IMG/VR virus record: IMGVR_UViG_3300010153_000062
Location: 1-29,605 of that record
Length of the DNA stretch: 29,605 nt
Strand: one strand, 5' to 3'
DNA from: a virus
Every line of letters starts with the position of its first letter. Position 1 is the stretch's first letter. The position numbers and the translations under genes were made by a program. This document shows positions 5,348 to 28,460 of the stretch, piece by piece. Under the pieces are notes generated by a model. The model saw nothing but the letters and a program-made list of their open reading frames with translations. It searched no databases and was not told where the DNA came from.

Positions 5348-8300
5348 ATGGCAGACGGTAATAAAGTATTTGTTTCTCCTGGTGTGTATACATCAGAGAA
5401 AGATTTGACATTTGTAGCACAAAGTGTTGGTGTTACAACATTAGGCTTAGTAGGTGAGGCATTAAAGGGTCCAGCCTTCGAACCAATTTTCATACAATCA
5501 TATGATGATTTTATAACTCGTTTTGGAGGTACATCACCTACAAAATACGTAGATTCACAAATACCTAAATATGAATTAGGGTATATAGCGAAATCATACC
5601 TAAGTCAATCAAATCAACTATTCGTAACAAGAGTGTTAGGTCTTAGTGGTTATGATGCGGGACCATCCTGGTCTATTAAAACTTTAGGTAGTTTAGACTC
5701 TTCACAATTTAGTGTAAGTACTGGTGGTACAGTAGGTAATGATGCGGGTACAGCTGCAATTGCAGGTACGTCGGCATATACAACTTACTTTGATATTTTT
5801 GTACCAATTACTGCTAGTAGTAATACCGCTTTAGGTTCAATTGTTTATGCAGATGCAACTTTAACAAATCCACTAACATTACCAGGACTAGTAGACCCTT
5901 CATTCGCAACTTCTACAGTAACATTAAATAACGGTTCAACACTACCAACATTTAATAACGACTTAATAAGTTGGGTAAAAGCTACTGTAACAAATACAAA
6001 TCATGCATATAATGCTGGTTGTTCTGCAACAACAGGAAGTACTTGTTTCGCTTATAATGGTGGAATTTACCAATATGGGTGTATGACGACATCTGGAACT
6101 TCAATAGCAACTGGAGCTACTAGTGGTTATACACAACCAGTAACAATAACAAATAGATTAGACACATTATGTACCGATTATACATCATATAAAAATGACG
6201 CTTGGTACTACGGACTATTCCAATACTCAAATAGTGATTGTTGTAGTGGAGGAACCTATAGTGGTGTATCATATCAACTATATCATGGAACAGCTTCCGC
6301 AGATACAGTAAATGCATCTGCTGGTGGTACGGTCTATTCAGGAACAACAGGTCAAACAGGACCAGCATCACTTAAAAATTCGGGTACTACAGTTTATTCA
6401 GCGACATGTGCAATAAACGTAGAATATTATAATAATGTTCCAGCTTATGATGAGTATGATGGAGTAGTAGTTGCTACATTAAGGTCTAGGGGAATAAGTA
6501 CAACAGGTTCTGGAGGACCAACATACGATGTAACAGGTAATTCAGTTAATTTTGATTGTACAGGGACTTACTCTGATGTACTAGAAGACCCATTTAAACC
6601 ATTTGGGATTAGTGCAACTACAGCAGGTGGAAATATATATACATTTAAAACTTCTATGACTAACACATCTAAAGATTATGTATCTAAGGTGTTTGGTGTT
6701 AGTCCATTTGACAAAAAGAGAGAAGATGTTCCTTTATTTATTGAAGAGTCTTACCCTGTAATGTTAAAAGATTTATGGAATAAAGGTAAGGTTAGAGGAT
6801 TACAATGTTGTTTAACATATCTTCCATCAGCGAGAGCAGCGACAAATACTAATACAATTGCGTGGAAAATGAATGAGTGGAGAACACCTGAAACTCCATG
6901 GATTGTAACAGAATTACAAGGTACTGACGTATTTAGGTTATTTAAATGTGTTTCGATATCAGACGGTACTTCAGCTAATAGAGAAATAAAAATATCATTC
7001 GCTAACCTATCTTTTGAGAGAGGTGAGTTTGATATTCTAGTTAGAGACTTTTATGATACTGATTCAGCACCTAACGTACTAGAAAAATTTACAAGATGTA
7101 GTCTAGACCCAACAAAAATTTCTTTTGTGGGTAGAAAAGTAGGTACGTCAACAGGTGAATTTGAATTAAAGTCTAAATACACTATGTTGTATTTGGCTGA
7201 TGGTGTTCTAGATGGTACTTTTGCTGGTTCACTACCTTGTGGGTTTGAGGGTTATAGATTTAGAACTTATAACTGTTCTTTAAATCCATTTATTAGTTAT
7301 AAAACTAAGTACTATACTCCTGGTGAAACAATTTATGACCCACCATTTGGTTCGGGTACTGGTAATAACAAAGTTTTAAGTGGTGGAGATAAGATATCAA
7401 AAGTTTATCTAGGCATATCTAACTCGGCCGGAGTAGGATACGACGCTGACTTCTTTGACTATAAATCACAACAACCACCAACTAGTATATGTACTGGTAC
7501 GGAAGGTACTGATTGGTCAACTATAACTCAAGGATTCCATATGGATTCAGGAGCAACAATAGTTAAAGGTGGTATAGGTACATATTTAGATTGGTCTGGA
7601 ACAACACTTAATAATAAATCAATATTCCAATGTGGTGTAACATCATTCCAAAAAGAACCTACATTAAGTACTGACCCTTATAAAAAATTAAGAGCACGTA
7701 AATGGACTGTATTACCACATGGTGGATTTGATGGTTGGGACATTTATAGAAAAACAAGGTCTAATACAGATGATTATAGAATGGGATTAACCGGATTCTT
7801 AAATGGAACTTGTGTTACAACAGAATTCCCTACAGCAACTGGAGACGGTTCATTTAAGAAACTAAGTAGTGTTGAAGCAAACACAGATTATTTTGCATAT
7901 CTCAGAGCCATCAATACATTTAGTAATCCAGAAGCGGTTGATATTAATGTATTCGCTACACCAGGTATCAATTACGTTGATAATTTAGGGTTAGTAAATG
8001 AGTCTATAGATATGATTGAGGATGAAAGAGCTGACTCATTATATGTTACAACAACACCAGACTATAATATGTTCGTAGCTAACACTACTGATACAGCTAA
8101 TATGGTAAGTCCTGAGGAAGCTGTAGACGCGATGGAAGATTCACTAATAGATTCTAATTACACAGCAACATACTATCCTTGGATTCAAGTAAGGGATACG
8201 GCTAATAACAAACAAATATTTATACCACCAACAGCTGAGGTAATGAGAAATATTGCATTGACTGATAATGTGTCATTCCCATGGTTCGCTTCAGCAGGTT

Positions 8301-8773
8301 ATACTAGAGGTATAGTTAACGCTGTAAAAGCTAGAAAGAAACTTACTCTTGATGAGAGAGATACGTTATATGTGGGTAGAGTTAATCCTATCGCAACATT
8401 TAGTGACGTAGGACCGATTATATGGGGTAATAAAACTCTACAAATTAAAGAATCTGCTTTAGATAGAATTAATGTTAGAAGATTATTACTACAAACTAGA
8501 AAATTAATTTCAGCTGTTTCAGTTAGATTAATATTTGAACAAAACGATGACATAGTAAGACAACAATTCTTAGACCTAGTTAACCCAATACTAGACTCTA
8601 TTAGAAGAGATAGAGGTTTAACAGACTTTAGAGTTGTATTATCAAGTGACCCAGAGGAAATCGATAGAAATGAAATGAGTGGTAAGATATATATCAAACC
8701 AACAAGAGCTTTAGAGTACATTTTTGTAGAATTCTTAGTAACACCTACAGGGGCTTCATTTGAGGATGTTTAA
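5348..8773 (+). CDS. gp18: Contractile tail sheath protein (gp18-like), greatly enlarged
   Basis: The protein has 1141 residues; T4 gp18 has 659. The N-terminus (VFVSPGVYTSEKDL, residues 7-20, and FVTRVLG near 92) and the C-terminal domain (about 930-1141, with FPWFASAGYTRGIV, NRLL-type helices and a final beta region ending in EFLVTPTGA) are classic for sheath proteins. These terminal domains build the contractile lattice around the tube. Residues about 112-368 are an inserted Gly/Ser/Thr/Asn-rich region with clustered cysteines (C225, C233, C245, C275, C298, C299, C354), after which the sheath core resumes at YDGVVVATLRSRG. A further enlarged region spans about 620-850. Inserts of this kind in sheath proteins project from the tail surface. 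No frameshift or stop interrupts the frame. The tube gene follows 2.1 kb downstream, after unrelated genes. Confidence 0.93.
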   Translation: MADGNKVFVSPGVYTSEKDLTFVAQSVGVTTLGLVGEALKGPAFEPIFIQSYDDFITRFGGTSPTKYVDSQIPKYELGYIAKSYLSQSNQLFVTRVLGLSGYDAGPSWSIKTLGSLDSSQFSVSTGGTVGNDAGTAAIAGTSAYTTYFDIFVPITASSNTALGSIVYADATLTNPLTLPGLVDPSFATSTVTLNNGSTLPTFNNDLISWVKATVTNTNHAYNAGCSATTGSTCFAYNGGIYQYGCMTTSGTSIATGATSGYTQPVTITNRLDTLCTDYTSYKNDAWYYGLFQYSNSDCCSGGTYSGVSYQLYHGTASADTVNASAGGTVYSGTTGQTGPASLKNSGTTVYSATCAINVEYYNNVPAYDEYDGVVVATLRSRGISTTGSGGPTYDVTGNSVNFDCTGTYSDVLEDPFKPFGISATTAGGNIYTFKTSMTNTSKDYVSKVFGVSPFDKKREDVPLFIEESYPVMLKDLWNKGKVRGLQCCLTYLPSARAATNTNTIAWKMNEWRTPETPWIVTELQGTDVFRLFKCVSISDGTSANREIKISFANLSFERGEFDILVRDFYDTDSAPNVLEKFTRCSLDPTKISFVGRKVGTSTGEFELKSKYTMLYLADGVLDGTFAGSLPCGFEGYRFRTYNCSLNPFISYKTKYYTPGETIYDPPFGSGTGNNKVLSGGDKISKVYLGISNSAGVGYDADFFDYKSQQPPTSICTGTEGTDWSTITQGFHMDSGATIVKGGIGTYLDWSGTTLNNKSIFQCGVTSFQKEPTLSTDPYKKLRARKWTVLPHGGFDGWDIYRKTRSNTDDYRMGLTGFLNGTCVTTEFPTATGDGSFKKLSSVEANTDYFAYLRAINTFSNPEAVDINVFATPGINYVDNLGLVNESIDMIEDERADSLYVTTTPDYNMFVANTTDTANMVSPEEAVDAMEDSLIDSNYTATYYPWIQVRDTANNKQIFIPPTAEVMRNIALTDNVSFPWFASAGYTRGIVNAVKARKKLTLDERDTLYVGRVNPIATFSDVGPIIWGNKTLQIKESALDRINVRRLLLQTRKLISAVSVRLIFEQNDDIVRQQFLDLVNPILDSIRRDRGLTDFRVVLSSDPEEIDRNEMSGKIYIKPTRALEYIFVEFLVTPTGASFEDV

Positions 8774-8837: not shown

Positions 8838-9539
8838 ATGAAATTTAATAAAAAAATATTGAGTGAAACTACTAATAGTAAGTCAGATGGTAAAAAAACT
8901 TTCACAAAAGATAAAAAACAAAATATAATTATCAGCGAAGGACAACTAGAGAGATTATTAGAAAAAGTGAATAACCCACATGAGATAGATACTGTTATTA
9001 AAGAAGCGTTTAAACTTATTCGTGAATCTATTGTTAGAGAAAATTTAGATTTAAATGTTGAGGATTATAGTGAGACAATAATGGAACAAGGTCAGTATGA
9101 TAGAAATCCTGGTGTTTCTGCCGCAGAAGGTATAGAAAATATTATTAATGGTGTCAAAAAAGCTTATGACATGATTAAAGATAGTGATACTAGAAGAAAA
9201 TTAGCTAACTCTATAACTAAATTAGGTAATTTTATGACGTATACAGCAGAACTTATAGGTTCAGGCCAATCACAAAGAGCAGCAAGAAGTTATGATGAAG
9301 TTTCTGACGACTTACCTTATCCTGAGTTAGAAGAAGAAATGTATGAAGGAGAAGTGGAAGAAGGTAAAAAAGCTAAACCAGACTTTTTAGATTTAGATAA
9401 AGATGGTGATACAGAAGAATCTATGGCAAAAGCTTCTAAAGAAGTTAATAATGAGTCAGTAGAGAAAGAAAAGGATAGACTAATCCAGGAAGACATTAAA
9501 AAAATGAAACAAGTTATTAAACCAATATCAAGAGTTTAA
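8838..9539 (+). CDS. Hypothetical acidic coiled-coil protein with a calcium-loop-like motif
   Basis: The function of this 233-residue protein is not recognised. The first 28 residues are basic and disordered. Residues 30-43 (IIISEGQLERLLEK) form an amphipathic helix closely like residues 5-20 of the HAD-fold protein at 9966. Residues 125-165 are helical, and the region after 170 is very acidic. Near the C-terminus D185-L-D187-K-D189-G-D191 is the DxDxDG core of calcium-binding loops; the usual Glu at loop position 12 is replaced by Met196, so it is closer to dockerin/excalibur-type loops than a full EF-hand. Similar PDFLDLDKDG segments are, to my memory, common in virion-associated proteins of marine T4-like phages. 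Its position directly after the sheath gene suggests a virion or assembly role. The gene has its own promoter-like element and a strong terminator. Confidence 0.75.
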   Translation: MKFNKKILSETTNSKSDGKKTFTKDKKQNIIISEGQLERLLEKVNNPHEIDTVIKEAFKLIRESIVRENLDLNVEDYSETIMEQGQYDRNPGVSAAEGIENIINGVKKAYDMIKDSDTRRKLANSITKLGNFMTYTAELIGSGQSQRAARSYDEVSDDLPYPELEEEMYEGEVEEGKKAKPDFLDLDKDGDTEESMAKASKEVNNESVEKEKDRLIQEDIKKMKQVIKPISRV

Positions 9540-9965: not shown

Positions 9966-10826
9966 ATGAAACATAAAATAATAATTAATGAAAGGCAAGT
10001 AAAAAGGATATCTAAACTTATAGAACAGGAAGATAACAATACAAACGACATAAAAGCTTATTCTTTTGATTGGGATGACAATATAGTTAAAATGCCTACA
10101 TTGATTAGAATGTTAAAATATAAAGATGGTAAATGGGAACCAACACAAGTATCGACAGATAAATTTTCAAAAATTAGGAATAGTAAAAACTATAAATTAG
10201 ATGATGACGCTTTCTATAATTTTAGAGAAGAAAAAGAGTTTATAGGTGATTTAAAAAAAGCTTTAGATAATAAATCTTTCGCACCATCATTCGAGAGTTT
10301 TAAAAAAGCTTTAATAAATGCACAACCAATATCTATTATAACAGCCAGAGGACACCAACCAATCACTTTAAGAAAAGGGATGGATATTGTGATATCTAAG
10401 ACATTTAATGAAGAAGAATTATCAGAAATGTTAAGTAATATACAACTTATATACCCTAAAACCAAATATCTTACACCAGATAAGACATTAGAGATTTATT
10501 TGGATGAAATTGATTATCACCCAGTATCCTCTGTTGAATTTGCTGATAAGTTTGGTTTAGATTTTGGTTCGGCTATAAATCCAGAAGAAAATAAAAAAAT
10601 AGCTTTTAGAGATTATGTAAATAAAATAATGGACGGAACAAATAAACTAGTAAATTCTAGTTATAATAAATTATCTGTAGGTTTTAGTGACGATGATTTA
10701 GGTAATATAAACGCAATGATAGACTATATTAAGGACGAATTACAAGAAGAGTTCCCAGAAACTACATTTATTGTTTACGATACATCTGAAGGGGGATATG
10801 GGAAAATTATAATTAAGAAACGATAA
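9966..10826 (+). CDS. HAD-superfamily phosphatase-like protein
   Basis: This 286-residue protein carries HAD motif I in SFDWDDNIVKMPT, with D35 as the expected nucleophile and D37 as acid/base; motif II is SIITARG (T126); the acidic motif IV is probably VGFSDDD (D242-D244). These residues define Mg-dependent phosphohydrolases that work through a phospho-aspartate. The substrate cannot be read from sequence. Residues 5-20 (IIINERQVKRISKLIE) form a helix shared with the protein at 8838, separate from the catalytic fold, and may be a targeting or packaging tag (inference). The C-terminal 50 residues add an alpha/beta segment ending in KIIIKKR. Lying between the sheath and tube genes, it may be a virion or assembly-associated enzyme. 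The start is the only one that keeps motif I, because the next Met is residue 43. Confidence 0.75.
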   Translation: MKHKIIINERQVKRISKLIEQEDNNTNDIKAYSFDWDDNIVKMPTLIRMLKYKDGKWEPTQVSTDKFSKIRNSKNYKLDDDAFYNFREEKEFIGDLKKALDNKSFAPSFESFKKALINAQPISIITARGHQPITLRKGMDIVISKTFNEEELSEMLSNIQLIYPKTKYLTPDKTLEIYLDEIDYHPVSSVEFADKFGLDFGSAINPEENKKIAFRDYVNKIMDGTNKLVNSSYNKLSVGFSDDDLGNINAMIDYIKDELQEEFPETTFIVYDTSEGGYGKIIIKKR

Positions 10827-10916: not shown

Positions 10917-11405
10917 ATGGCTGACTTGTTAATGAAAATGCCCGTACCCTATGAACCGAAGAAAAAGAATCGGTTTATCCTAAGGTTTGACTCTTCTTTA
11001 GGTATTAATGAATGGTACGTGGAAAGCACATCTAGACCACAAATTACTATAAACTCGGTAGAAGTACCTTTTTTAAATACATCAACGTATGTTGCTGGTA
11101 GATTTACCTGGGGCACAATTAATGTAACATTTAGAGACCCAATAGGTCCTTCAGCAGCTCAAGCACTAATGGAGTGGGTAAGGATGCATTCAGAGTCAGT
11201 AACAGGTAGAATGGGTTACGCTGCAGGATACAAGAAAAATATAGATTTAGAGTTATTAGACCCAACAGGGGTGGTAGTAGAAAAATGGATACTACAAGGA
11301 ACTTTCTTAACTGATGTTAATTTTAACGATTTAAGTTATAGTGATGATGGTTTAGCAAATATAACAGCCACTTTAAGACCAGATAGATGTGTCTTAGTTT
11401 ACTAA
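10917..11405 (+). CDS. gp19: Tail tube protein (gp19-like)
   Basis: At 162 residues it is almost the same length as T4 gp19 (163). The beginning MADLLMKMPVPYEPKKKNRF, the strand WYVESTSRPQI, the central PFLNTSTYVAGRFTWGTINVTFRDP and the end FNDLSYSDDGLANITATLRPD are the familiar gp19 pattern of a beta-barrel ring subunit. Hexameric rings of this protein stack to form the channel for DNA inside the contractile sheath. It has its own promoter-like element, a long A/T-rich leader and a strong terminator, as expected for a single highly expressed gene. The A-rich, Shine-Dalgarno-free start region resembles that of the sheath gene, and both proteins begin MAD. Confidence 0.92.
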   Translation: MADLLMKMPVPYEPKKKNRFILRFDSSLGINEWYVESTSRPQITINSVEVPFLNTSTYVAGRFTWGTINVTFRDPIGPSAAQALMEWVRMHSESVTGRMGYAAGYKKNIDLELLDPTGVVVEKWILQGTFLTDVNFNDLSYSDDGLANITATLRPDRCVLVY

Positions 11406-11580: not shown

Positions 11581-12333
11581 ATGCAAACAGAACAACCATT
11601 AGAAACTATATTACCTTATGACGTGGTATCATTACCATCACAAGGTATTTTTTACGAAAGTAGAAAAAAAAGTTTAAAAGTAACTTATTTAAATGCTTCA
11701 GACGAAAATTTACTATCAACACCGTCTATGATTGGTAGTAAAAAATTAATTCACACCTTACTAGAAAGAAAAATATTAGATAAAGATATTAATGTAGAGG
11801 AATTAGCGGAGTGTGATAAAGAAGCTATATTAATTTTTTTACGTAACACAGCTTTTGGTTCCGACTACACAATTAAACTTAAAGACCCAAAAACAAATAA
11901 TGAGTTTGAAACAAGTATAGACTTATCTATTCTAAAAACTAAAGATGTTGGTGTGGAACTAGATGAAAAAGGTGAATTCGAATATTACCTAGAAGTTTCA
12001 AAAAAGAAATGTAAACTAACTCTAATATCGCCTAGAATAGAAAAAGAACTACAAAAAATTAACGAAACCTACAAAGACCACCCAATAAATCCTTATATCA
12101 CCAAACAACTAGAAATGGTAGTGAAGGAAATAGACGGAGTTAGAGACCCAATGTCTATAGCACAAACCATCCAAATAATGCCTATTAAAGATTCTCAAAG
12201 TATCAGAAAAGTTATTAGAGAAAACGCACCAGAACTAGACCTTAGTGTCAAAGTCAAAACACCGTCCAACGAGGAGATTGGAGCACGTATTGCTTTTGGA
12301 CTTGAGTTTTTTCGTCCTTTCTACGGCATATAG
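11581..12333 (+). CDS. Baseplate hub / tail assembly chaperone, gp26-like
   Basis: The 250-residue protein opens with LPYDVVSLPSQGIFYESRKK, like the VxLPSKGxxYP start of gp26-type proteins in T4-like phages. It continues with SDENLLSTPSMI, a short helix, and ECDKEAILIFLRNTAFGSDY, also family-typical. In T4, gp26 takes part in baseplate hub assembly; in many phages the gene before the tape measure encodes a tail assembly chaperone that coats the tape measure protein. The frame ends in EEIGARIAFGLEFFRPFYGI. A second frame (+1) starts inside its 3' end and continues to 12511, and a TTTTTTC run at 12307-12313 could let ribosomes shift into it. The gene lies directly before the tape measure gene, which supports the chaperone reading. 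Confidence 0.7.
   Translation: MQTEQPLETILPYDVVSLPSQGIFYESRKKSLKVTYLNASDENLLSTPSMIGSKKLIHTLLERKILDKDINVEELAECDKEAILIFLRNTAFGSDYTIKLKDPKTNNEFETSIDLSILKTKDVGVELDEKGEFEYYLEVSKKKCKLTLISPRIEKELQKINETYKDHPINPYITKQLEMVVKEIDGVRDPMSIAQTIQIMPIKDSQSIRKVIRENAPELDLSVKVKTPSNEEIGARIAFGLEFFRPFYGI
12307..12313 (+). other. Candidate programmed frameshift site (TTTTTTC)
   Basis: In the gp26-like frame this reads TTT TTT C, 18 nt before the stop at 12331. Both a +1 shift (the Phe tRNA moving from TTT to TTC) and a -2 shift lead into the downstream frame. The product would be about 309-310 residues. The site is in the overlap between two tail chaperone frames, where programmed shifts are known in other tailed phages. 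No pause structure was verified. Confidence 0.4.
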
Positions 12334-12511
12334 GAATGCCCTATTGCAAGAGTTTTACTACCTTATGAGGCACTTACATATTCCTTGGAGGGATATCTTA
12401 GTTATGCCAACATTTGAACGAAGGTTTTATGTTAATTTCTTAACAGAAGAGTTTAATAAGAAAAATGAGGCAGTAGAGCAAGCAAAAAACAAAAGGAAAT
12501 CCTCCTACTAA
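12314..12511 (+). CDS. Second tail assembly chaperone frame (C-terminal part of a possible frameshift fusion)
   Basis: The frame is open from 12245, but codons before about 12314 lie under the clearly conserved gp26-like frame and are probably not meaningful. The distinct part reads STAYRNALLQEFYYLMRHLH, then IPWRDILVMPTFERRFYVNF, then a Lys/Glu-rich helical tail ending at 12508. The succession of a helix, W-x-D-I-x-x-M-P and ERR-F/Y is like the short helical T domains of tail chaperones that recruit tube subunits. No ATG occurs before M at 12368, which would cut the first helix; TTG at 12344 with AGGA upstream is the best independent start. Either frameshifting at 12307-12313 or that TTG would express it. 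The tape measure gene begins 24 nt later. Confidence 0.6.
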   Translation, partial: VLSTAYRNALLQEFYYLMRHLHIPWRDILVMPTFERRFYVNFLTEEFNKKNEAVEQAKNKRKSSY

Positions 12512-12535: not shown

Positions 12536-14707
12536 ATGATTGGTTTGTTAAAACAACTCTTTATTGAACGTATTTTATCTGGGGCAAAAGCTTATTTAGC
12601 TTATCATCCCGAATTAGGAGTGCCTATAGGTATTTTTAACACAAAAGACGAACCAACACACCAAGACCGAGTTAACTCCATAAAACGTTACGGAAAGAAA
12701 GGTAACCCATATTCTTACAAATTAGCTTTATTATTGGGTATAAAAAACCCATTACCATCATATCTAGCTGACCCTGATTTAGAAAAAAGAGTTACAGAAC
12801 TAGAAGCTGAAAATGAAAGATTAAAAGACTACCTTGGTAATGAAACTAAAAGAACTAGGGTTAGTGGAGAAGGAATGAACGCTAAATTTTTCTCAGCACT
12901 AGAAGAAATTAACAAACAACGTACACCTATGTCTGATATGTCTGTTGGTGATATACAACAGATAAGTAAAATGGTAACAGACCTGAGAAGAGGTACTGCG
13001 GTATCAGCGGAGAACATGGGAAAGGTGTTAGATTTACTAGCTTATGAAGATACATTAAGATTAGACCTTTCCAAATCTATTGGATTATCCAATGCTCAAT
13101 TAATAGACCAAATAGAATTAATTAATGAGGCCGCAACTGAAGGGGCAGAATATGGATTAAGAGCAAATGAATTACTAGCGGCATTTAAATCCATAACACA
13201 AGAAATTGGTAGAAATCTATATATTTCACCAGATGTTATGAAAAGAACCGCTTTATTAACCAAGACTTTAGATGGTTTTGACGCCTCTAAATTTGCAGAC
13301 GCTTTTGATACTGTAGGTATGTCGTTAGACGATGCTGTTGGGGGGATAGATGACGCGGATGGAGCTCTTACCGATATAATACAAACAGGACAAGAGTTAG
13401 GGGTTACTATGGAACAATTTTTAGGTGATGTTACCGGTAATATAAAATTAATTAACACATACGGATTTGAAAACGGTGTAGAAGGTTTAGCTAGAATGGT
13501 TGCTCGTTCACAAGCTCTTGGTTTAGAAATGTCTACAGTGACTGGTATGGCAGAAAAATTCTTAGACCCGGAAGGAGCTATAGACTTTGCAGCTAGAATG
13601 CAGGTAATTGGTGGTGCAGTAGGTGATTTAGCTGACCCATTTAAGTTAATGTATATGGCAACTAATGACTTAGAAGGTTTACAAGACGCGATTGTAGATA
13701 CCGCAGCAGCAGCTGTAACTTTTGATAAAGAAAAAAATGCATTTGTTATATCACCGGAATCAAGAAGACAATTACGAGACCAAGCAGATGCAATGGGGAT
13801 GAGTTACCAAGAACTAGCCGATACCGCGGTAAAATCTGCTAGAAGAGCAGCTGTATTCTCAGAATTAGAATTTGTGGGGGACATGTCGGAAACAGACAAA
13901 GAATTAATAGCATCAATGGCTCAAATAGGTGAAGGTGGTGCCGCACAAGTTAAAATTCCTGGTATTGAAGAAATGGTAGATGTTGCTAATGTGACCGACG
14001 AACAAATGGAGTTATTAAGAAAAGAAGGTATGTCTGATACTGATATATATAGACAACAACTTACGGTCGCGGAAAAAAGTGAACAAGCGTTAGCTCGTAT
14101 TGAAGCAGCAGCAAGGGTACAAATAAGATTAATGGGTGGTAGTTCTACTGATGTAGATGCAATGACAGCTTCACAAATGTTAGCAGGTACAATACCTACA
14201 ACTAACCAAATCACACCAGAACAACAAGAGAAATTTGAAACTAGACAAGCAGAGATTGATGCTTTACAAAAAGAGAAAGATGCTGGTAATGCAATAGATG
14301 ATGATAAATTAGAAGAATTAATAAAAGAACAAGAAAAAGAAAAACGTAAAATTTTAGACTCATTTAGTGGTAAATTTAAAGACACTGTATTGGAAATGTT
14401 CCAGGATGGGGTTAATTTAAATGATGCTATTATATCCCCTGATGGTGAAATTCGTAATACTAGAGCTGGTGACTACATTGTTACTGGCACACAAATGGAT
14501 GGTGGACAAGGAATAGACGCTTTAGAATCAGCTTTAATGGGTGGTGTTGGTGGTGGAGGTGGACAAACACTACAAGTAGGTGGAACAATAACCGTTCAAG
14601 GGGAAGGTGAGTCAGCAAGGGTTGATGCAAGAGCATTTATGGACGCTTTTAGTAGAACTAGTAGTGGACAAAAACAAGATATGTATTCACAATTAAATAG
14701 TGTTTAA
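12536..14707 (+). CDS. Tape measure protein (gp29-like)
   Basis: This is a 723-residue, mainly helical, Ala/Asp/Glu-rich protein with no cysteine; T4 gp29 has 590. The N-terminal 75 residues contain YHPELGVPIGIFNTKDEPTH. A leucine-zipper-like coiled coil follows at 80-103 (LEKRVTELEAENERLKDYL). A long helical region of 110-560 includes a segment rich in small residues at about 345-395. A charged coiled coil spans about 565-610. A Gly-rich stretch near 665-675 precedes a terminal beta/helix segment. Tape measure proteins run inside the growing tube and set its length; at the usual 1.5 Angstrom per residue this one implies a tail near 108 nm. The position between the chaperone pair and baseplate genes is the canonical one. 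No peptidoglycan hydrolase or obvious transmembrane segment is visible in it. Confidence 0.75.
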   Translation: MIGLLKQLFIERILSGAKAYLAYHPELGVPIGIFNTKDEPTHQDRVNSIKRYGKKGNPYSYKLALLLGIKNPLPSYLADPDLEKRVTELEAENERLKDYLGNETKRTRVSGEGMNAKFFSALEEINKQRTPMSDMSVGDIQQISKMVTDLRRGTAVSAENMGKVLDLLAYEDTLRLDLSKSIGLSNAQLIDQIELINEAATEGAEYGLRANELLAAFKSITQEIGRNLYISPDVMKRTALLTKTLDGFDASKFADAFDTVGMSLDDAVGGIDDADGALTDIIQTGQELGVTMEQFLGDVTGNIKLINTYGFENGVEGLARMVARSQALGLEMSTVTGMAEKFLDPEGAIDFAARMQVIGGAVGDLADPFKLMYMATNDLEGLQDAIVDTAAAAVTFDKEKNAFVISPESRRQLRDQADAMGMSYQELADTAVKSARRAAVFSELEFVGDMSETDKELIASMAQIGEGGAAQVKIPGIEEMVDVANVTDEQMELLRKEGMSDTDIYRQQLTVAEKSEQALARIEAAARVQIRLMGGSSTDVDAMTASQMLAGTIPTTNQITPEQQEKFETRQAEIDALQKEKDAGNAIDDDKLEELIKEQEKEKRKILDSFSGKFKDTVLEMFQDGVNLNDAIISPDGEIRNTRAGDYIVTGTQMDGGQGIDALESALMGGVGGGGGQTLQVGGTITVQGEGESARVDARAFMDAFSRTSSGQKQDMYSQLNSV

Positions 14708-18685: not shown

Positions 18686-19003
18686 ATGAGTTATTATGAT
18701 AGATATAGTGAATTTATTGTAAATGGTGACTTTATTATGGTTCCCAGCATTACATTAGATGTGAAATCTACAGATAGAGAAACTGTTTATAAAGTAGGCA
18801 AAACTAGACTGGATAAACTATCACAGCAATACTATGACTCACCCTACTATGGTTGGTTAATTATGCAAGCTAATCCACAATACGGTGGACAAGAATGGAA
18901 TATTCCAGATGGAACACTTATAAGGATACCACACCCACTAATGACATCACTTGAGGAATATAAATCAAAAGTAGACACACACTTCCTCTATTATGGCAGA
19001 TAA
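18686..19003 (+). CDS. Baseplate wedge protein, gp53/LysM-like
   Basis: The 105-residue protein has the compact LysM-like arrangement found in gp53-type wedge proteins: a strand around YKVGKTRLDKL, a helix with SQQYYDSPYYGWLIMQANP, and the closing strand IPDGTLIRIPHP. T4 gp53 shows the comparable core with an aromatic-rich segment (GNPQLYWVLLM) but is longer (196 residues). In T4 gp53 joins neighbouring wedges around the hub; in related contractile systems a small LysM protein does the same. It follows the preceding stop by 2 nt, and its 3' end overlaps the start of the giant hub-like gene by 11 nt, consistent with coordinated synthesis of baseplate parts. The N-terminal half of T4 gp53 has no counterpart here. 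Confidence 0.65.
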   Translation: MSYYDRYSEFIVNGDFIMVPSITLDVKSTDRETVYKVGKTRLDKLSQQYYDSPYYGWLIMQANPQYGGQEWNIPDGTLIRIPHPLMTSLEEYKSKVDTHFLYYGR

Positions 19004-22000
19004 ATTAAACAGCGGTAACATATACACAAATGCGGTAGGAAACAACCTTGTTGTTGTAGACCCAAACAAAGTGGTATTAAATGGTGAGATTAAAGATAGA
19101 CTTGTAGACCATGAAGATATGGTTATGTACGCTAATCTTACAGCAATAATTTATCCACGTAGTAAAGTTATTTCTGGTTCACAAAATCAAGGAGATAGAA
19201 TAATAGTGGACATATTTGATGGTGAATTAAATTTTCTAAAACCAAAAAACTCGGATTTTTTAAACTCCGATTGGACCCAAGCTTTTACAAACCCAGATGT
19301 TAATAAAAAAGTTAAAACTGTAGATAGTGAAGGTACTACTATAGGTGTAACGACAGAAAACACACTAGATTTTCAAGGATTCGGAATAACATCAATAAAC
19401 GTTAAGTTAAATGCATCATATATACCACAAGTAAGTATTAATTTTACTGATGTAAGAGGGAAAACATTATTTGAACAAGCCAGGGGGAACACTCCCTACA
19501 CGGCCTTTTTCCACCTACCATACCCAACATTTTATTTAACACTTAAGGGTTATTATGGTAAGGCAGTAAAGTACCAGCTCACCATGGAAAAATTTTCATC
19601 TAGGTTTGACCCAGCGAGTGGTGATTATTTAGTGACGTGTAACTTTGTTGGTAATCACGTAGCATTACTTAGGGATATAAATATGCACCAGGTGTTAACA
19701 GCACCATACATGTACCCAACTAGTTGTGACGCTAGTGGTTGTGTGACTGAAACTAGAGGGAAACAAGTGTTAAAAGAAGTTTATGCTACATATAGACAAC
19801 AAGGATTAATTGATGAATCTTTTTCCAAAGATTCAGAAATAACATTAGTTGACCTTATAGAAAAATTAAAATTATTAGATAATAATCTAGGAAAATTATT
19901 TGGTGAAAGTAGTTTACAAATGACTACTGATAGACTTGAGTACGATTCGTTACTTAAAGATTTAAATAAATCTATAAAAGAAAAAGATGGGTGGAAAGAC
20001 CGATACTTAAATAACAATAAAGTTGTTACAGTACAAGTTGTGGTGCCTGATACAACAACAACAGGTAAAACAATTAATGTTAGTGCTTACCCTTTAAAAG
20101 GTATAGATGTAATTCCTGAAACAGAAGACCCAATAGTCTACAAAGAAAAAATAATTACTGAAGCGAAAGATAAATTACAAGGTATAATAGACACATTTAC
20201 TGATGAAGCAAATGAAAATTTAACATTTGGAAAAGGTGGTGAATATATGGTAGACACCAAACTCCTACACCAAACAGATTTATTTGAAGCTCAAAAAGTT
20301 TCAGGCATAAATGTTAAAGTGGTTGACGACTCAGGGTTAGATACTGAATTAGAACCTTGGATTATAATGGATGGTGCGTCATTAGTATATGGTGAATTAT
20401 TTAAAAAACATAAAACTGAATTTGAAAAAAGTGCAACTAAAATGTCTACTAAAGTTGGTAAAACACTAAATAGTAGATTAGAAGCAGAAATAGGGTTTAA
20501 ACCAACCATTAGAAATGTTTTTGCAATTATTATGGCAGGTGCAGACACCTTTTTAAGACTAATGGATATAGTACACACTAACGCTATGGAAATGAAAAGT
20601 AACGCAAAAAGGTTAGACATCTCCAAAGACAGTAAAAGTAATGACATAGTTTATCCATGGCCTCAATATTTTGTTGTGGAAGAAGAAGATGAGTGTACTA
20701 CGTCTTCAGTTTTAAAATACCCAGGAGCTAAAGATGTTATAGATAGTACTGGAGCTGACGACATTAAAGTTTGGCCTGAAGTACACTTTGTTGAAGAGTA
20801 TACCAAAACAAGTGTTTATAAGTCCTCAGACTTTAATCTACAAACACCTAATAATGCCTATGTAAAAGAATTTATACCAATTAATATATACGACTGGAAT
20901 GTAACCAAAGAACCATATAGTGACACCTATTTTGTTAGTTTGATGTGGGAAATATTACTTAGAGGTCAAAAAACCGTAAGATATGGTAGTATAGATACTA
21001 GATTTGCTGGAAGTGGTTATAATCTAAACGCTCATATATTTGAACTTGCTGGTTATGATGGTAAAAATTTATATGATAAAGTTAGTAAATCTTATTCTTT
21101 AAATCAGTTTTTTAAGGATGTAAAATCTAGTGATGACTTAATTAACTTTTTAAAGACAAATGACCCAGAAAGAACAAACTTATATCTAGAATCAAATACA
21201 GTAACACCACAAACAAACACTAAGTCATATGATTTTTCTTATACAGAAATAGTTTATAGTGTAAATCCAGCAGGGTTTGAAGAAAATATAAAATACGTTA
21301 AAGACATATCAAAAACTTTTGATGCATTTTTTGACCTCGCACCAACATACTGGGGAGGTGCGGGTGGTTGGATTAAAGCCAATTATGCTAATGGTGAAAA
21401 TAGTAGGGTTGGTGATTTTTATGAAATAGGAAAAAGTTTAGAATATGATTTAGGTGGGACATTTAATCTCAGGGATAAAGATGATATCCGATACCAGATA
21501 TATAAAAACTTTTGTTTTAGTTTTGAAATAGATACACTAGCTAGATTTAATAACACACCAAAAAAACTAAGTTCACAACCAGAAGAATTTTACAAAGAAT
21601 TAAACACCTCAACAAACCCACTAGGAGTTACAGAAGGAGAAATAGTGAGGGATGATACTACAACATTCTCCACATCGTTACCAGTACCTGGTTCACCAGC
21701 ACCAGTAGCTGAAGAAAACTATAGTCTATATACTTCCATGTTGAATACACCTTATTTTATAAATGCAATTGTGGGTGGTGTAGCTATGGACGCTCTTGGA
21801 ATGCCCGGTCCATATATTTCTGCGTCGTACCTATTCTTAAACTCCCTACCACTACCGACATTTAGAGAAAAAGTTTTATTAAAAGGTGATAGTGAGGGAA
21901 CAACAGAGTTCGGTTCATACATATCACAAATATTTAATCAAATACCAGCTATTCATGATGTACCAGTATCATTATTACTTAGACTAGGGTCAATATGGCA

Positions 22001-25000
22001 TAGATATAAAGAACAAGTTAATGGTATGGGTGATATACTTGGTGGTGATTTTAATAACTTAGGTGGAGGAGGTGGTGTTGGTCCGTTCTATGACCCAGTT
22101 GGTGGTAATATAAATCAATCATTTACCTACACAGATAGTTCTGGTGGTGGAACATTAAATTATAATGGTTCTACAACAAATTTCGGAGTCTACCAAGAGG
22201 TAATAGGAGCTATACATTATATTGCTTCTGGTGAGTTTACCACACCAACAACCAATTTAAATAATGCAATTGGAGTGGGAGCACCACTAACAATATCACA
22301 AAATCCAAACATAACAACAAATAATACTGACTTTAAATTTTTTGACGTTCATTTAGATTCGGCTAATATCACCAACCCACTCTTAGGAGCAAAAGGAACT
22401 GGGAGGGATTATTTTATTGTATACCCTTCTTCAGGAGCTCTAATTGATACAGATATTAATAGTTATTCCACACCTAATGTTGCATGGTTAAATAATGGTG
22501 GTTGTAGAATGTTATGGGGAATGTCTAATTATGGATACTTCCAACATAGCCCAAATTATAGAGCACAAGAACATAGATACTTTAAGAAAATAGACAACAC
22601 ACAAGACCAACAAATAGCTTGGCAGCTTAGACCTTTTGATGTACAAGACTATTCAACGATAGAAGAATTAAGAGGGGTGTTTAATTCAGAACAACTAGAT
22701 TTTTTTGAATCGTTATTTTTAAAATTTGCAAGTCCTAACGGTGATGCTGACTTGGGTGGTAGTATGAAACAAATTATTAAAGATATTACAGTTATTGAAA
22801 AAAAATGGTTAGACCCTACACAGGCAGTAACTAGAATAGAGGGGGTTCTCGCTAAAGCACAACTTAAAAAATTCGGTAAAGTCATGACTAAATTTTTAAA
22901 TAAAAGAATTAGTTATGTACATAAAACAACAACTAATGTTGGGGAGGTCATAAACAACTCAACCCTAATACAAAAATTAAAAGATATTGAATCTGGTAAT
23001 AACGAATATGAATTTGGTAACCTAACTCCAGGTAGTATACCACCATTAGCTGGTTCACAAGAAGACATAGATATTAAACTACATGTTGGACAATACTACT
23101 CTCAGGATAGTACCCAATTTACTATCTTAGTACCAAATGTAGCAACAAACCCAATATTAAACTTTTTTGCTACTATTAGAAATAATGGGATAGAATTTAA
23201 TTCTGAAAACATAAAAGGTTTTGCTCCTTTTATAAGATTGTATGCCGCACACTGTGCCAATAGTGGGTTAATACCAGCTAGTACATACCTTACACAATTT
23301 ATGTCTGAATTAGATGGTCTGTCCACAAAAGAAAATGAATACATAAATCAGTTAGTAAAAGTTAGTAATGGAAATATTAACGATGAAGAAAACACACCAG
23401 ACCAAGATATGGCGGACAGTAGAACAAGTATCGAAGGTGATGACCTAAAATTGGATTTATACAATCAATTTAAAACTCTTAATGATAGGTGGATATCAGG
23501 ATTAGACCTACAAACCCAAACACTATTTCAGAGATTTTTATTTTTCGATAGAGCAAATAAAGATATTGGTGATAGTGCAATTATTAATATATGGGACATA
23601 ATAAAATTAGACACACCTTTTGACTCTGGAAACGAAAAAACATTAACACAGAGTATTTCTAGTTACATATCCACAATTTTAGCAAATAATTTCTTTAACT
23701 ACATTCCATTACCGTCGTACATTAACTTCTATAGTGTTGGTGGTGATAACACACAAAAACAGGGTAATGCGATGTTTGGGACATTTAAAACAGTAGATTA
23801 CTTAGAATCTTCCCCAGTTTTTCTATGTCAATATGTTGGAAAACCATCATCCCAATTAAATAATAAAGCCCCAAACAATGGATATGCTAATGACGGGTTT
23901 GCATTAAATTTGGTTAGTAATAACCCTTTGGCTGGTCCTGACTGTGGTAACAAAAAACTATCTAATAAAGTTATGGGGTTCACGGTAGACTTTGGAATAC
24001 CTAATCAAAACATGTTTGAATCAATAACATTAGACCAAGAACAATTTCAAAACACTTCAGAGAGTTATAAGATATTACAACAAATGGCAGATTCGGGTGG
24101 TGGAGGAGCAACCAGTATGGCATCATCATCATTATATAATGTCTATGCGAGTAGGTCTTACACAGCAAAAGTTACATGTATTGGAAATGTGACCATACAA
24201 CCAACCCAATACTTTCAGTTAAGATACCTACCAATGTTTAACGGACCTTATTTAATTATAAATGTAGAACACAACATAACACCCAACAATATAGAAACAA
24301 GTTTTGAGGGTGTTAGAGTACCAATACCTAAATTACCAAATATTACAGACTTGGTACAAAGAGTAGAAGAAAAACTTTACGCAGCAGCAGAAACTAGACT
24401 ACAAGATAAAATTAAAAATGTATTTTATGATGATAACGATGCAACACCAAAACAATTAAAATTAACACCGGAAGATAACGGTTATTTAGATTTGGATAAT
24501 ACACCTTGGGTGGAAGACAATGTTGAATTACTACTACCAATTATGCCAGAATTAATTAACCCACAACAAATAACAGATAGCAAAACAAGACATCTAGGTG
24601 TAGACTTAACACCAATACCAAGTCAAACAACAGAGGTTAGTAGTGAAGAAGGTATATTAATTAGACCAGTTATGGTTGGAACAGTTATTGATAGATTAGA
24701 TGGTTGTAAACCACAACAAAAAGATAACAAATGTGCAAGATATGGTAATTATGTAATAACTCAAAAAACTATACTGGAATTCCCTGGAGAAGGTGAAACA
24801 GCTTACTACAAAGTAAAATATGCAAATCTAAGAGAAGGTGAAGTATTGGATATGGGTCAAGAAGTATCTAAAATTAGTGATAGTGATATTGCTTTTGGTA
24901 ACGTTATTATAGGTAAATTAGGAAATAGTGGAATGTCTAGGGGACCTCATTTACACTTAGAAGTAATACGTGGTGTTGTTAATGGTAGTGGTAAAGTAGT

Positions 25001-25049
25001 AGAACATTACTTAAATCCTGAACGTATGTTCCCGGAATATTATTCTTAG
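18993..25049 (+). CDS. Giant baseplate hub-like protein with C-terminal M23 (LytM-type) peptidase
   Basis: At 2018 residues this is the longest gene in the window. Residues about 130-235 are a beta-rich domain. A long central part (300-1700) has Gly-rich linkers (about 1024-1030). Residues about 1715-1785 (an AKVTCIGNVTIQP strand, then FNGPYLIINVEHNI and a closing FEGVRVPIP) have the form of hub proteins such as gp27/gpD, where an OB-like domain supports the spike. The C-terminal domain from about 1860 is a zinc peptidase of family M23: H1867 and D1871 in HLGVD, and the HxH pair H1986/H1988 in GPHLHLEV, with the conserved GNSGMSRGPH approach. M23 enzymes cut peptide crosslinks in peptidoglycan, so it probably opens the cell wall when the tail contracts. 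Fusing hub and lytic domain parallels T4, where a lysozyme domain sits in gp5. No catalytic residue is missing. Confidence 0.85.
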   Translation: MADKLNSGNIYTNAVGNNLVVVDPNKVVLNGEIKDRLVDHEDMVMYANLTAIIYPRSKVISGSQNQGDRIIVDIFDGELNFLKPKNSDFLNSDWTQAFTNPDVNKKVKTVDSEGTTIGVTTENTLDFQGFGITSINVKLNASYIPQVSINFTDVRGKTLFEQARGNTPYTAFFHLPYPTFYLTLKGYYGKAVKYQLTMEKFSSRFDPASGDYLVTCNFVGNHVALLRDINMHQVLTAPYMYPTSCDASGCVTETRGKQVLKEVYATYRQQGLIDESFSKDSEITLVDLIEKLKLLDNNLGKLFGESSLQMTTDRLEYDSLLKDLNKSIKEKDGWKDRYLNNNKVVTVQVVVPDTTTTGKTINVSAYPLKGIDVIPETEDPIVYKEKIITEAKDKLQGIIDTFTDEANENLTFGKGGEYMVDTKLLHQTDLFEAQKVSGINVKVVDDSGLDTELEPWIIMDGASLVYGELFKKHKTEFEKSATKMSTKVGKTLNSRLEAEIGFKPTIRNVFAIIMAGADTFLRLMDIVHTNAMEMKSNAKRLDISKDSKSNDIVYPWPQYFVVEEEDECTTSSVLKYPGAKDVIDSTGADDIKVWPEVHFVEEYTKTSVYKSSDFNLQTPNNAYVKEFIPINIYDWNVTKEPYSDTYFVSLMWEILLRGQKTVRYGSIDTRFAGSGYNLNAHIFELAGYDGKNLYDKVSKSYSLNQFFKDVKSSDDLINFLKTNDPERTNLYLESNTVTPQTNTKSYDFSYTEIVYSVNPAGFEENIKYVKDISKTFDAFFDLAPTYWGGAGGWIKANYANGENSRVGDFYEIGKSLEYDLGGTFNLRDKDDIRYQIYKNFCFSFEIDTLARFNNTPKKLSSQPEEFYKELNTSTNPLGVTEGEIVRDDTTTFSTSLPVPGSPAPVAEENYSLYTSMLNTPYFINAIVGGVAMDALGMPGPYISASYLFLNSLPLPTFREKVLLKGDSEGTTEFGSYISQIFNQIPAIHDVPVSLLLRLGSIWHRYKEQVNGMGDILGGDFNNLGGGGGVGPFYDPVGGNINQSFTYTDSSGGGTLNYNGSTTNFGVYQEVIGAIHYIASGEFTTPTTNLNNAIGVGAPLTISQNPNITTNNTDFKFFDVHLDSANITNPLLGAKGTGRDYFIVYPSSGALIDTDINSYSTPNVAWLNNGGCRMLWGMSNYGYFQHSPNYRAQEHRYFKKIDNTQDQQIAWQLRPFDVQDYSTIEELRGVFNSEQLDFFESLFLKFASPNGDADLGGSMKQIIKDITVIEKKWLDPTQAVTRIEGVLAKAQLKKFGKVMTKFLNKRISYVHKTTTNVGEVINNSTLIQKLKDIESGNNEYEFGNLTPGSIPPLAGSQEDIDIKLHVGQYYSQDSTQFTILVPNVATNPILNFFATIRNNGIEFNSENIKGFAPFIRLYAAHCANSGLIPASTYLTQFMSELDGLSTKENEYINQLVKVSNGNINDEENTPDQDMADSRTSIEGDDLKLDLYNQFKTLNDRWISGLDLQTQTLFQRFLFFDRANKDIGDSAIINIWDIIKLDTPFDSGNEKTLTQSISSYISTILANNFFNYIPLPSYINFYSVGGDNTQKQGNAMFGTFKTVDYLESSPVFLCQYVGKPSSQLNNKAPNNGYANDGFALNLVSNNPLAGPDCGNKKLSNKVMGFTVDFGIPNQNMFESITLDQEQFQNTSESYKILQQMADSGGGGATSMASSSLYNVYASRSYTAKVTCIGNVTIQPTQYFQLRYLPMFNGPYLIINVEHNITPNNIETSFEGVRVPIPKLPNITDLVQRVEEKLYAAAETRLQDKIKNVFYDDNDATPKQLKLTPEDNGYLDLDNTPWVEDNVELLLPIMPELINPQQITDSKTRHLGVDLTPIPSQTTEVSSEEGILIRPVMVGTVIDRLDGCKPQQKDNKCARYGNYVITQKTILEFPGEGETAYYKVKYANLREGEVLDMGQEVSKISDSDIAFGNVIIGKLGNSGMSRGPHLHLEVIRGVVNGSGKVVEHYLNPERMFPEYYS

Positions 25050-27028: not shown

Positions 27029-28033
27029 ATGGCATTAAAAAAAAGAACATTTTCAGACTTAAAAAACAAATTTTCAAAGAAAGCTAACTTTAAACCAGAA
27101 AGATTTTTTGATTTAGGGAAAGCTTTCCTTGATGCCACTGGTTTACCAGGTCCAGCTATGGGTCATTTACAGATGTTTTTAGGTCACTCTGATACTGGAA
27201 AAACTACAGCTTTAATAAAAGCTGCTGTTGACGCACAAAATAAAGGTATTTTACCTGTATTAATTATTACTGAACAAAAATGGGGTTTTGAACATGCCAA
27301 ACTTTTAGGTTTTGATTGTGAGGAAGTTGTTGATAAAACTACAGGTGAAATAGACTGGGATGGATTTTTCCTATTCAATAACGACTTTCAATACATTGAA
27401 GAAATTACTGACTATATTAACACATTACTTGATGCACAAGATAAGGGTGAATTAGAGTACGACTTATTATTTTTATGGGACTCAGTTGGTTCGGTACCTT
27501 GTAAAATGACTTTTGACGGTAAAGGTGGTAAAATGCACAATGCAGCTACATTAGCTGATAAGATAGGTATGGGTCTAAATCAAAGAATTGGTAAATCAAG
27601 AAGACAGGACTCAAAATACACAAATACACTAGTAGTAGTAAACCAACCGTGGGTTGAATTACCAGATAACCCATTCGGACAACCTAAAATTAAAGCAAAA
27701 GGGGGTGAATCTTTATGGTTAAATTCTACATTAGTATTTAGATTTGGTAATCAAAAAAATGGTGGTACAACAAATATTACAGCAGTTAAAGAAAAACGAA
27801 AAGTAAAATTTGCTACTAGAACAAAAATAACCATTATGAAAAACCATGTTAATGGTTTGGGATATGAGGATGGAAAAATACTTATAACCCCACATGGATT
27901 TATAGCTGGTAGAGAAGCTAGCGAAGAAAAAAAATCAATAGAAAAATATAAACAAGAAAATGCTACCTTTTGGTCTGAACAATTAGGCGTGGGTGGTGAT
28001 TTCGACTTAAAAATAGAAAAAGAAAATGACTAA
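27029..28033 (+). CDS. uvsX: UvsX/RecA-like recombinase
   Basis: The protein has 334 residues, with Walker A GHSDTGKT (52-59), a catalytic-type glutamate E82 in ITEQKW, and Walker B LLFLWDSVG (146-154). Further RecA-core features follow: NQRIGKSRRQ, the strand NTLVVVNQPW and the KAKGGESLWLNS segment. The arrangement is that of the T4 UvsX branch of RecA, which forms filaments on ssDNA and drives strand exchange and recombination-dependent replication with gp32. Genes for the ssDNA-binding protein before it and a 5'-3' exonuclease two genes later form a coherent unit. The last 8 bases (ATGACTAA) overlap the start of the FKBP gene. The C-terminus is Lys/Glu-rich and acidic, as in RecA proteins. 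The motifs are complete. Confidence 0.92.
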   Translation: MALKKRTFSDLKNKFSKKANFKPERFFDLGKAFLDATGLPGPAMGHLQMFLGHSDTGKTTALIKAAVDAQNKGILPVLIITEQKWGFEHAKLLGFDCEEVVDKTTGEIDWDGFFLFNNDFQYIEEITDYINTLLDAQDKGELEYDLLFLWDSVGSVPCKMTFDGKGGKMHNAATLADKIGMGLNQRIGKSRRQDSKYTNTLVVVNQPWVELPDNPFGQPKIKAKGGESLWLNSTLVFRFGNQKNGGTTNITAVKEKRKVKFATRTKITIMKNHVNGLGYEDGKILITPHGFIAGREASEEKKSIEKYKQENATFWSEQLGVGGDFDLKIEKEND

Positions 28034-28460
28034 ATTAAAAACAGGAGACAAAGTTAAAGTACACTACACAGGAACACTAAAAGAAGGACAAGTATTTGAT
28101 AGTTCAAGAGATAGAAACCAACCACTAGAATTTGCTATAGATGACGGTAAATTACTTAAAGGCTTTAATGACGCTGTTAAGGATTTGGAAGTTGGTGGAA
28201 CAAAGACTATTTCATTGGCATCTGAAGAAGCTTACGGTAAATACATCGATGAAGCTGTTATTACAGTACCTAAATCAGAATTTCCAAAAGAAATGGTTTA
28301 CGAACTAAATGGTTTTGTTCAAGGACAAGACAGTCAAGGTAGACCAGTACAAGGACAAGTGGTTAAAATAGAGGAGGAAAGTGTTAATCTAGATATGAAT
28401 CACCCCTTAGCTGGAGAGGATTTAAAATTTGAAATTGAGTTGGTAGAAATTGTAAAGTAA
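28026..28460 (+). CDS. FKBP-type peptidyl-prolyl isomerase, SlyD-like
   Basis: The 144-residue protein starts KLKTGDKVKVHYTGTLKEGQ, the FKBP opening strand pair, followed by VFDSS and the LLKGFNDAVKDLEVGGTKTI core. An inserted chaperone (IF) domain spans about residues 68-120 between SEEAYGKY and NHPLAGEDLKFEIELVEI, the ending characteristic of SlyD-type enzymes. Such proteins catalyse cis-trans isomerisation of proline bonds and act as folding helpers. The His-rich metal-binding tail of E. coli SlyD is missing. Its ATG overlaps the uvsX stop by 8 bases, so it is made with the recombination proteins. Whether it helps fold phage proteins or acts on a host target cannot be read from sequence. 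Prolyl isomerases are uncommon cargo in phage genomes. Confidence 0.93.
   Translation: MTKLKTGDKVKVHYTGTLKEGQVFDSSRDRNQPLEFAIDDGKLLKGFNDAVKDLEVGGTKTISLASEEAYGKYIDEAVITVPKSEFPKEMVYELNGFVQGQDSQGRPVQGQVVKIEEESVNLDMNHPLAGEDLKFEIELVEIVK

Follow-up and report, generated by a model that had tools for sequence, protein, structure and literature searches.

The window, by which we mean the whole 29,605-nucleotide stretch of viral DNA analysed (positions 1 to 29,605 of IMG/VR record IMGVR_UViG_3300010153_000062), very probably contains a single gene that is read in two ways, with a programmed +1 frameshift yielding a plain and an extended form of a protein resembling gp26 of phage T4. This reading was derived from sequence alone; ribosomal pausing, the efficiency of the shift, chaperone action, and stimulation by a G-rich element are inferred, and neither the shift nor the protein has been measured. 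The original prediction that a programmed frameshift joins two frames at this site is supported by slip codons that are conserved beyond the needs of either protein, by coding constraint on the second frame as well as on frame 0, and by the lack of conservation of usable start codons in that frame.

Overlapping frames between the tail tube and probable tape measure genes

The frame-0 gene, which encodes a hub assembly domain of the gp26/gp51 type, extends from 11581 to 12333 on the plus strand, and its product of 250 amino acids ends in LEFFRPFYGI. The run TTTTTTC at 12307–12313 is read in this frame as TTT TTT CGT (12307–12315, plus strand), with TTT at 12307–12309, TTT at 12310–12312, and CGT at 12313–12315 taken as the E-, P-, and A-site codons, respectively; the TAG stop codon (12331–12333, plus strand) is located 24 nt beyond the first T of the run. 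A +1 slip from the P-site TTT would allow re-pairing with TTC at 12311–12313 (plus strand). The second frame, which is +1 (equivalently, −2) relative to frame 0 in the ORFs of the window, contributes a putative C-terminal part of 65 amino acids (VLSTAYR...SSY, 12314–12511, plus strand) and is open up to TAA at 12509–12511; this part is supported by an alignment (A1), by coding constraint, and by a structure model. The stop at 12331, the run within the overlap, and a protein-like second frame in +1 or −2 up to 12508 had all been predicted, and each was found. Upstream of the site the +1 frame is not conserved, being open for 3 to 120 nt across the 120 listed loci of the motif set described below, and the ORF list offers GTG at 12245 as a further start for this frame. 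The window, being AT-rich, contains six copies of TTTTTTC on the plus strand and 19 on the minus strand, and TTT followed in frame by CGN occurs once among its 8962 codons, at the slip site, compared with 1.23 expected. Given that TTTTTTC alone is common in the window, the case for frameshifting rests on comparison with relatives.

Tail assembly chaperone genes are usually found between those for the tail tube and the tape measure. Here the tail tube gene lies directly upstream (10917–11405, plus strand; phrog_4542, E 3.4e-32) and a probable tape measure gene directly downstream (12536–14707, plus strand). The latter gave no convincing Pfam or PHROGs match of its own, and its assignment is based on its position and on the annotation of its equivalent in Flavobacterium phage immuto as a tail tape measure protein. 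The overlapping frames are placed as foreseen for a chaperone cassette, just before the probable tape measure gene.

Several other genes of the window were also noted. A tail sheath protein of 1141 amino acids is encoded at 5348–8773, with its best match to phrog_23 at residues 850–1138 and a very long part before it. The proteins encoded at 8838–9539 and 9966–10826 have, by eye, a short NH2-terminal motif in common (IIISEGQLERL and IIINERQVKRI, respectively), which is perhaps a common targeting signal; neither protein matched Pfam at E up to 0.01. The 2018–amino acid product of 18993–25049, probably a hub or needle enzyme, gave a weak C-terminal match to M23 peptidase (E 0.0012, below the cut-off), and a phage-borne FKBP-type peptidyl-prolyl isomerase is encoded at 28026–28460 (PF00254, E 4.6e-21).

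Conservation of the slip site and of the second frame

A protein search with the window protein yielded 14 viral loci, one of which (L001) is 100% identical to it and may represent the same phage. Two loci (L005 and L007) do not reach the junction; of the 12 that do, nine have TTTTTTCGTCCTTTC intact, down to a protein identity of ~50%, and L012–L014 (28% protein identity) read TTT TTT TGG at the site. A search of viral contigs with the 20-mer TTTTTTCGTCCTTTCTWYGG gave a motif set of at least 120 loci, which was chosen by the motif and was therefore left out of the conservation counts. The layout was the same in all 120 listed loci as far as each contig reaches: the frame-0 stop lies 24 nt on in 118 of them and 42 nt on in one, with the contig ending first in one, and the +1 part comprises at least 40 codons in 115. 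Four of the other five leave the contig, and in L082 the +1 frame meets TGA 16 nt before the contig end. For alignments, the 73 loci with a complete 5′ end among 80 motif loci listed were reduced to 37 by identity, of which 28, 30, and 28 were used, together with the window, for A1, A2, and A3, respectively.

Relatives of the A3 set were chosen without the site, with the protein alignment cut before it and with the patterns YL[TN]AxDEN and FLRNT..FG located far upstream; this set consists of the best 80 of 595 confirmed relatives and leans to closer ones. In these best 80, the P codon is TTT throughout, the E codon is TTT in 78 and TTC in two, the A codon is CGT in 49, CGC in 30, and CTC in one, and the frame-0 stop is 24 nt away in 79 and 27 nt away in one. 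Conservation of the slippery run was thus confirmed for the in-frame TTT_C (80 of 80) but not for the six-T run as such, which is broken in two of 80 (TTC TTT CGC).

Among 45 representatives of the A3 set (<85% nucleotide identity over the 300 nt upstream), the P codon showed no synonymous differences in 990 pairs and the E codon 44, with 322 expected for each; the Phe codon at −12 nt, by contrast, varies (28 TTT, 14 TTC). Fourteen of 15 upstream codon columns were at 0.47 to 1.63 of the synonymous expectation; column −27, at 0.15, is near the E codon (0.14), and the P codon is at 0. If the slip occurs here, the third base of the slip codon is free in both products, so that the invariant TTT points to a constraint at the RNA level. 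Fisher tests gave 8e-5 for the P codon, 1e-3 for the E codon, and 9e-44 for CGY at the A site; these tests treat loci as independent and serve as contrasts rather than exact probabilities.

The A-site codon belongs to a rare class. Codon usage in the window (20 ORFs counted) includes no CGC, 24 CGT, and 219 AGA among 8962 codons, and the upstream Arg codons of the 45 representatives (n = 312) comprise 245 AGA, 35 AGG, 17 CGA, 15 CGT, and no CGC. CGY thus accounts for 44 of 44 Arg codons at the A site versus 15 of 312 upstream, and CGC, absent upstream, fills the A site of 15 of these representatives. The choice of CGY is explained in part by the requirements that C follow UUU and that the second protein have Val or Ala, but its rarity remains. 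Dual coding of CGT CCT TTC after the slip accounts for part of the downstream constraint.

A second group of relatives, the best 80 of 596 loci from a distant alignment search, has no exact 60-mer in common with the first among the 60-mers sampled, and its second frame is likewise +1. In these best 80 loci, the E codon is always TTT, the P codon is TTT (60) or CTT (20), and the A codon is TGG (72), TAC (four), or TTC (four), with CCT next in 78; TTT CTT is followed by TGG in 17 cases and by TAC in three.

The sequence directly 5′ of the slip site is GGA CTT GAG (12298–12306, plus strand). At −9, the Gly codon is GGG in 32 of the 45 A3 representatives, as against 28 of 308 upstream Gly codons; in the second group, 47 of 63 representatives also have Gly at this position, encoded by GGG in 28 of these cases compared with 73 of 699 upstream. 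Pairing with the 3′ end of 16S rRNA occurs at other bacterial frameshift sites, and the preference suggests that GGG at −9 pairs in this manner as an anti-SD element, but, given that the window has GGA instead of the favoured GGG, this remains only a hypothesis. RNA structure, which the original prediction had raised for the region downstream of the run, found no support, with nothing standing out in the stretches downstream of, across, or upstream of the site (z of −0.72, −0.86, and 0.72, respectively).

Beyond the frame-0 stop, 2215 of 4641 single-base codon differences in the +1 frame are synonymous (47.7%), versus 666 of 3820 (17.4%) and 616 of 4275 (14.4%) in the other two frames. Within 120 nt, stop codons interrupt frame 0 in all 45 representatives and the third frame in 43 of them; the +1 frame is free of stops in all 45 by construction, given that 120 open nucleotides were required, and without this filter the count is 79 of 80. 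The residues F, V, L, S, Y, D, P, and R are invariant in 29 of 29 members of A1, with the first four falling inside the selecting motif. The model of the +1 stretch (pLDDT 92) predicts three helices, at residues 5–22, 26–31, and 34–65 of the 66 amino acids counted from F 12311, in a domain that contains an MPxFERR motif.

One rival explanation, which we regard as very unlikely, is that the second frame represents an independent gene translated by re-initiation at TTG (12344–12346, plus strand), which stands behind AGGA (12332–12335) at a spacing of 8, with AGGA overlapping the stop codon. Second frames with a start at the stop codon exist: that of LR756511 is in another frame and has a TAATG start at the stop (by eye), and that of Vibrio K448 has TAATG at the stop and no −1 heptamer; these two seem to use separate, coupled genes. 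The TTG of the window was, however, judged not to be the normal start. A start codon is lacking at its position in 65 of 80 A3 relatives, L002–L004 have TTA there, and residues before it are conserved, including the invariant Tyr. It also lies inside a predicted helix, and, since the first helix of the model begins before it, a start there would be expected to give a broken domain. Re-initiation would moreover leave the invariant TTT and CGY codons unexplained. The weakness ascribed earlier to the start codons of this frame holds for TTG 12344, which is not a conserved start, whereas the ATG listed at 12368 is actually at 12365 (offset +58). In the +1 ORF, any of ATG, GTG, or TTG is present at or before +25 in 69 of the 80 A3 relatives, all within the gp26 reading; ATG or GTG is present by +25 in 21 and ATG in 11, and five have no start codon of any kind up to +60. 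The corresponding figures for the second group are 60, 39, and 21 of 80, with 17 lacking a start up to +60, and in L010 no start precedes +133.

Direction of the shift and proposed mechanism

Judged from the slip codons of the relatives, the direction of the shift is +1, a P-site slip from UUU to UUC, and not −2. A −2 shift, in which the tRNA would move back on the T run, leads to the same frame; TTTTTTC permits UUU to re-pair two bases back, and the −2 shift in the tail chaperone gene of phage Mu (GT) provides a precedent, as described in PMC3498833. We nevertheless give it only a very slight chance of being correct. Two A3 relatives (L172 and L197) read TTC TTT CGC, with which −2 re-pairing is lost, given that UCU would come under tRNA-Phe, whereas UUU_C is kept and +1 pairing stays good. 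The 20 of 80 second-group loci with TTT CTT would similarly put UUC under tRNA-Leu; since re-pairing of CTT is possible at +1, where it meets UUU, and impossible at −2, the second group fits +1. L175 reads TTT TTT CTC, retaining UUU_C without CGN.

In the mechanism proposed for the +1 slip, most ribosomes (a proportion that is inferred) would stop at TAG 12331 and release the gp26-like protein of 250 amino acids, whereas some would pause with the rare CGU in the A site and peptidyl tRNA-Phe on UUU (12310–12312). By moving one base forward, from UUU to UUC, this tRNA would let translation resume at GUC 12314 and end at UAA 12509, giving a predicted fusion of 309 amino acids with a helical C-terminal domain. 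The plain and extended forms would act as assembly chaperones for the tape measure or hub, comparable to gpG/gpGT of lambda and gp26/gp51 of T4. The peptide predicted to span the junction has three Phe residues for +1 (LEFFFVLSTAYR) and two for −2 (LEFFVLSTAYR). Predicted tryptic peptides for the window phage are IAFGLEFFVLSTAYR for +1, IAFGLEFFFVLSTAYR for −2, and IAFGLEFFRPFYGI for the unshifted product, and a +1 slip on CUU in immuto would give a peptide with the end GVSFLGLTPEYR.

Slippage of RNA polymerase on the T run, which would make mRNAs in the second frame, has the presence of six T residues in its favour but is scarcely credible, given that the layout persists without the run (TTC TTT CGC in two of 80 loci, TTT CTT in 20 of 80); a run of six is also short for bacterial transcription slippage. 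Sequencing error, a pseudogene, or chance overlap can be virtually ruled out, for although TTTTTTC occurs 25 times on the two strands of the window and the one A3 exception (L201, on the same contig as L082) has TGA after 19 codons, 16 nt before the contig end, this explanation is refuted by the comparison, in which the +1 part spans 40 codons or more in 79 of 80 loci of each of two separately searched sets, the exception in the second group being L247, whose contig ends inside the site.

The +1 layout was also seen, by eye, in the isolates Flavobacterium phage immuto (TTT CTT TGG), Microcystis Mel-JY01 (TTT TTT TGG), Streptococcus phage GXN1 (TTC TTT CGT), Listeria LIS04 (TTT TTT AGT), and Pseudomonas QdP_Psa3 and Xanthomonas phiXF1 (both TTC TTT CCC TAA), as well as in the 484-kb giant-phage record LR756508 (TTT CTA). 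The last five of these are represented by loci L309 (2483–3232), L016, L020, L021, and L310. Six distant genome-contig loci (L303–L308) showed no clear +1 partner by eye and were not counted. The main sets do not fit a −1 slip on X_XXY_YYZ, their second frames all being +1. The gp26 gene ends with T_TTT_TTC in the cyanophages S-CRM01 (L311, 43206–44092), Bellamy, S-SM1, Syn33, and P-RSM6 and with T_TTT_TTT in Ochrobactrum phage OC. A gp51-like frame in −1, open through the heptamer, was found in six of seven phages inspected (these five cyanophages and OC; L311, L320–L324); S-CRM01 was the query, and the remaining six were selected manually among 40 listed of 560 records. Frameshifting by −1 at the equivalent site is possible in these cyanophages and OC.

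Protein family and comparison with known systems

The frame-0 protein matched PF12322 (T4_baseplate; E 2.3e-7, 31.1 bits against a cut-off of 24.5) and phrog_150 (E 2.6e-8), and PF12322 was matched at E up to 0.01 by 32 of 34 A2 members. Its AlphaFold2 model (pLDDT 86.8) matched 50 BFVD entries with E up to 0.001, the best of which (3.8e-27) is an uncharacterized phage protein; a baseplate hub subunit of Bacillus phage SP-15 followed at 1.2e-14, and hub assembly proteins of the T4-like type were among the further matches, from 3.1e-13. The PDB yielded no fold match below E 0.001 and no sequence match at E up to 0.1. Comparison by hhalign of single T4 gp26, gp51, and gp28 sequences with profiles from the window relatives gave nothing significant, nor did comparison of a gp51 profile (A5) with the frame-0 profile (A2). 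The evidence linking frame 0 to T4 consists of the Pfam and PHROGs matches together with the similarity in fold.

Both gp26 and gp51 of T4 belong to PF12322, and gp51 alone of the two adds a C-terminal match to phrog_634. The second frame matched this family weakly, at E up to 0.1 in nine of 29 members (best, 4e-5; window, 0.0045), and hhalign of a profile of nine gp51 sequences against A1 gave E 3.5e-4 with a probability of 37% at gp51 residues 218–250. DUF6760 was matched in 12 of 29 members (best, 2.7e-5), with the match of the window below its cut-off. T4 gp26 ends in KEFFELL, which on visual inspection lies close to the position corresponding to the slip site, and the Konradin record calls both proteins tape measure assembly chaperones. 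On the basis of these matches, the unshifted product resembles T4 gp26 and the fusion may correspond to gp51, the latter by a weak C-terminal match; the chaperone role of the plain and extended pair is inferred. The two-gene arrangement of T4 to which the original prediction referred stands to the extent that gp26 and gp51 are the likely equivalents, but the shift would replace two genes rather than join gp26 to gp51. In the 2010 T4 review (PMC3004832), gp26 and gp51 are tabled as hub assembly chaperones, the function of gp51, which is essential, is given as unknown, and genetic findings are cited that place gp26 as a hub component; this last placement is a poor fit to a pure chaperone.

We consider it rather likely, with less assurance than for the window itself, that the UUU_CGN +1 signal also operates in bacteria and is widespread in T4-like phages, with gp26 and gp51 being a plain and extended pair of tape measure chaperones and relatives using one gene with a +1 or, possibly, in cyanophages, a −1 shift. 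If so, a +1 motif proposed to be active in diverse eukaryotes would extend to the ribosomes of bacteria, its numerous natural variants would allow rules to be inferred, and T4 gp26 and gp51 would gain a concrete role as an unfused and fused chaperone pair that can be tested in the best-known phage. The reading also bears on an annotation gap: the second protein of immuto is annotated with a late start, as a hypothetical gene of 36 codons without the conserved core. Frameshifting in tail chaperone genes is established, and the UUU_CGN motif has so far come from animal and plant viruses; a literature search restricted to open-licence papers listed none that describes UUU_CGN in phages or frameshifting in gp26/gp51 genes.

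According to PMC5009743, the lambda tail assembly chaperones G and GT are made by −1 frameshifting and the shift of HSTV-2 is called very likely +1, so that a +1 chaperone shift is not unprecedented. Like lambda G/GT, the window has a small gene between those for the tube and the tape measure that would give plain and C-terminally extended products through a shift just before the stop codon; unlike in lambda, the shift would be a +1 P-site slip on UUU_CGY rather than a −1 slip on X_XXY_YYZ, and the family is that of T4 gp26/gp51 (PF12322). T4 differs in turn in having two separate genes on opposite strands, whereas the window has one gene and a shift. Frameshifting by +1 on UUU_CGN is known in influenza A PA-X (PMC3498833), is proposed for plant amalgaviruses (PMC5052127), and is proposed as a class to be active in diverse eukaryotes (PMC3498833, PMC5052127). 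The site in the window resembles those of PA-X and the amalgaviruses in having UUU in the P site, C next, a rare CGN Arg codon in the A site, and a +1 direction. It differs in that those sites are read by eukaryotic ribosomes and the phage site by bacterial ribosomes, in its possible upstream G-rich element, and in its E-site codon, which is UUU in the window phage and UCC in PA-X. In bacterial prfB, a +1 frameshift at CUU_UGA proceeds by a slip from CUU to UUU. The CUU_U loci of the second group would use the same slip, CUU_U being also discussed in PMC10885494, and differ from prfB in that the A site holds a sense codon, UGG or UAC, instead of a stop codon.
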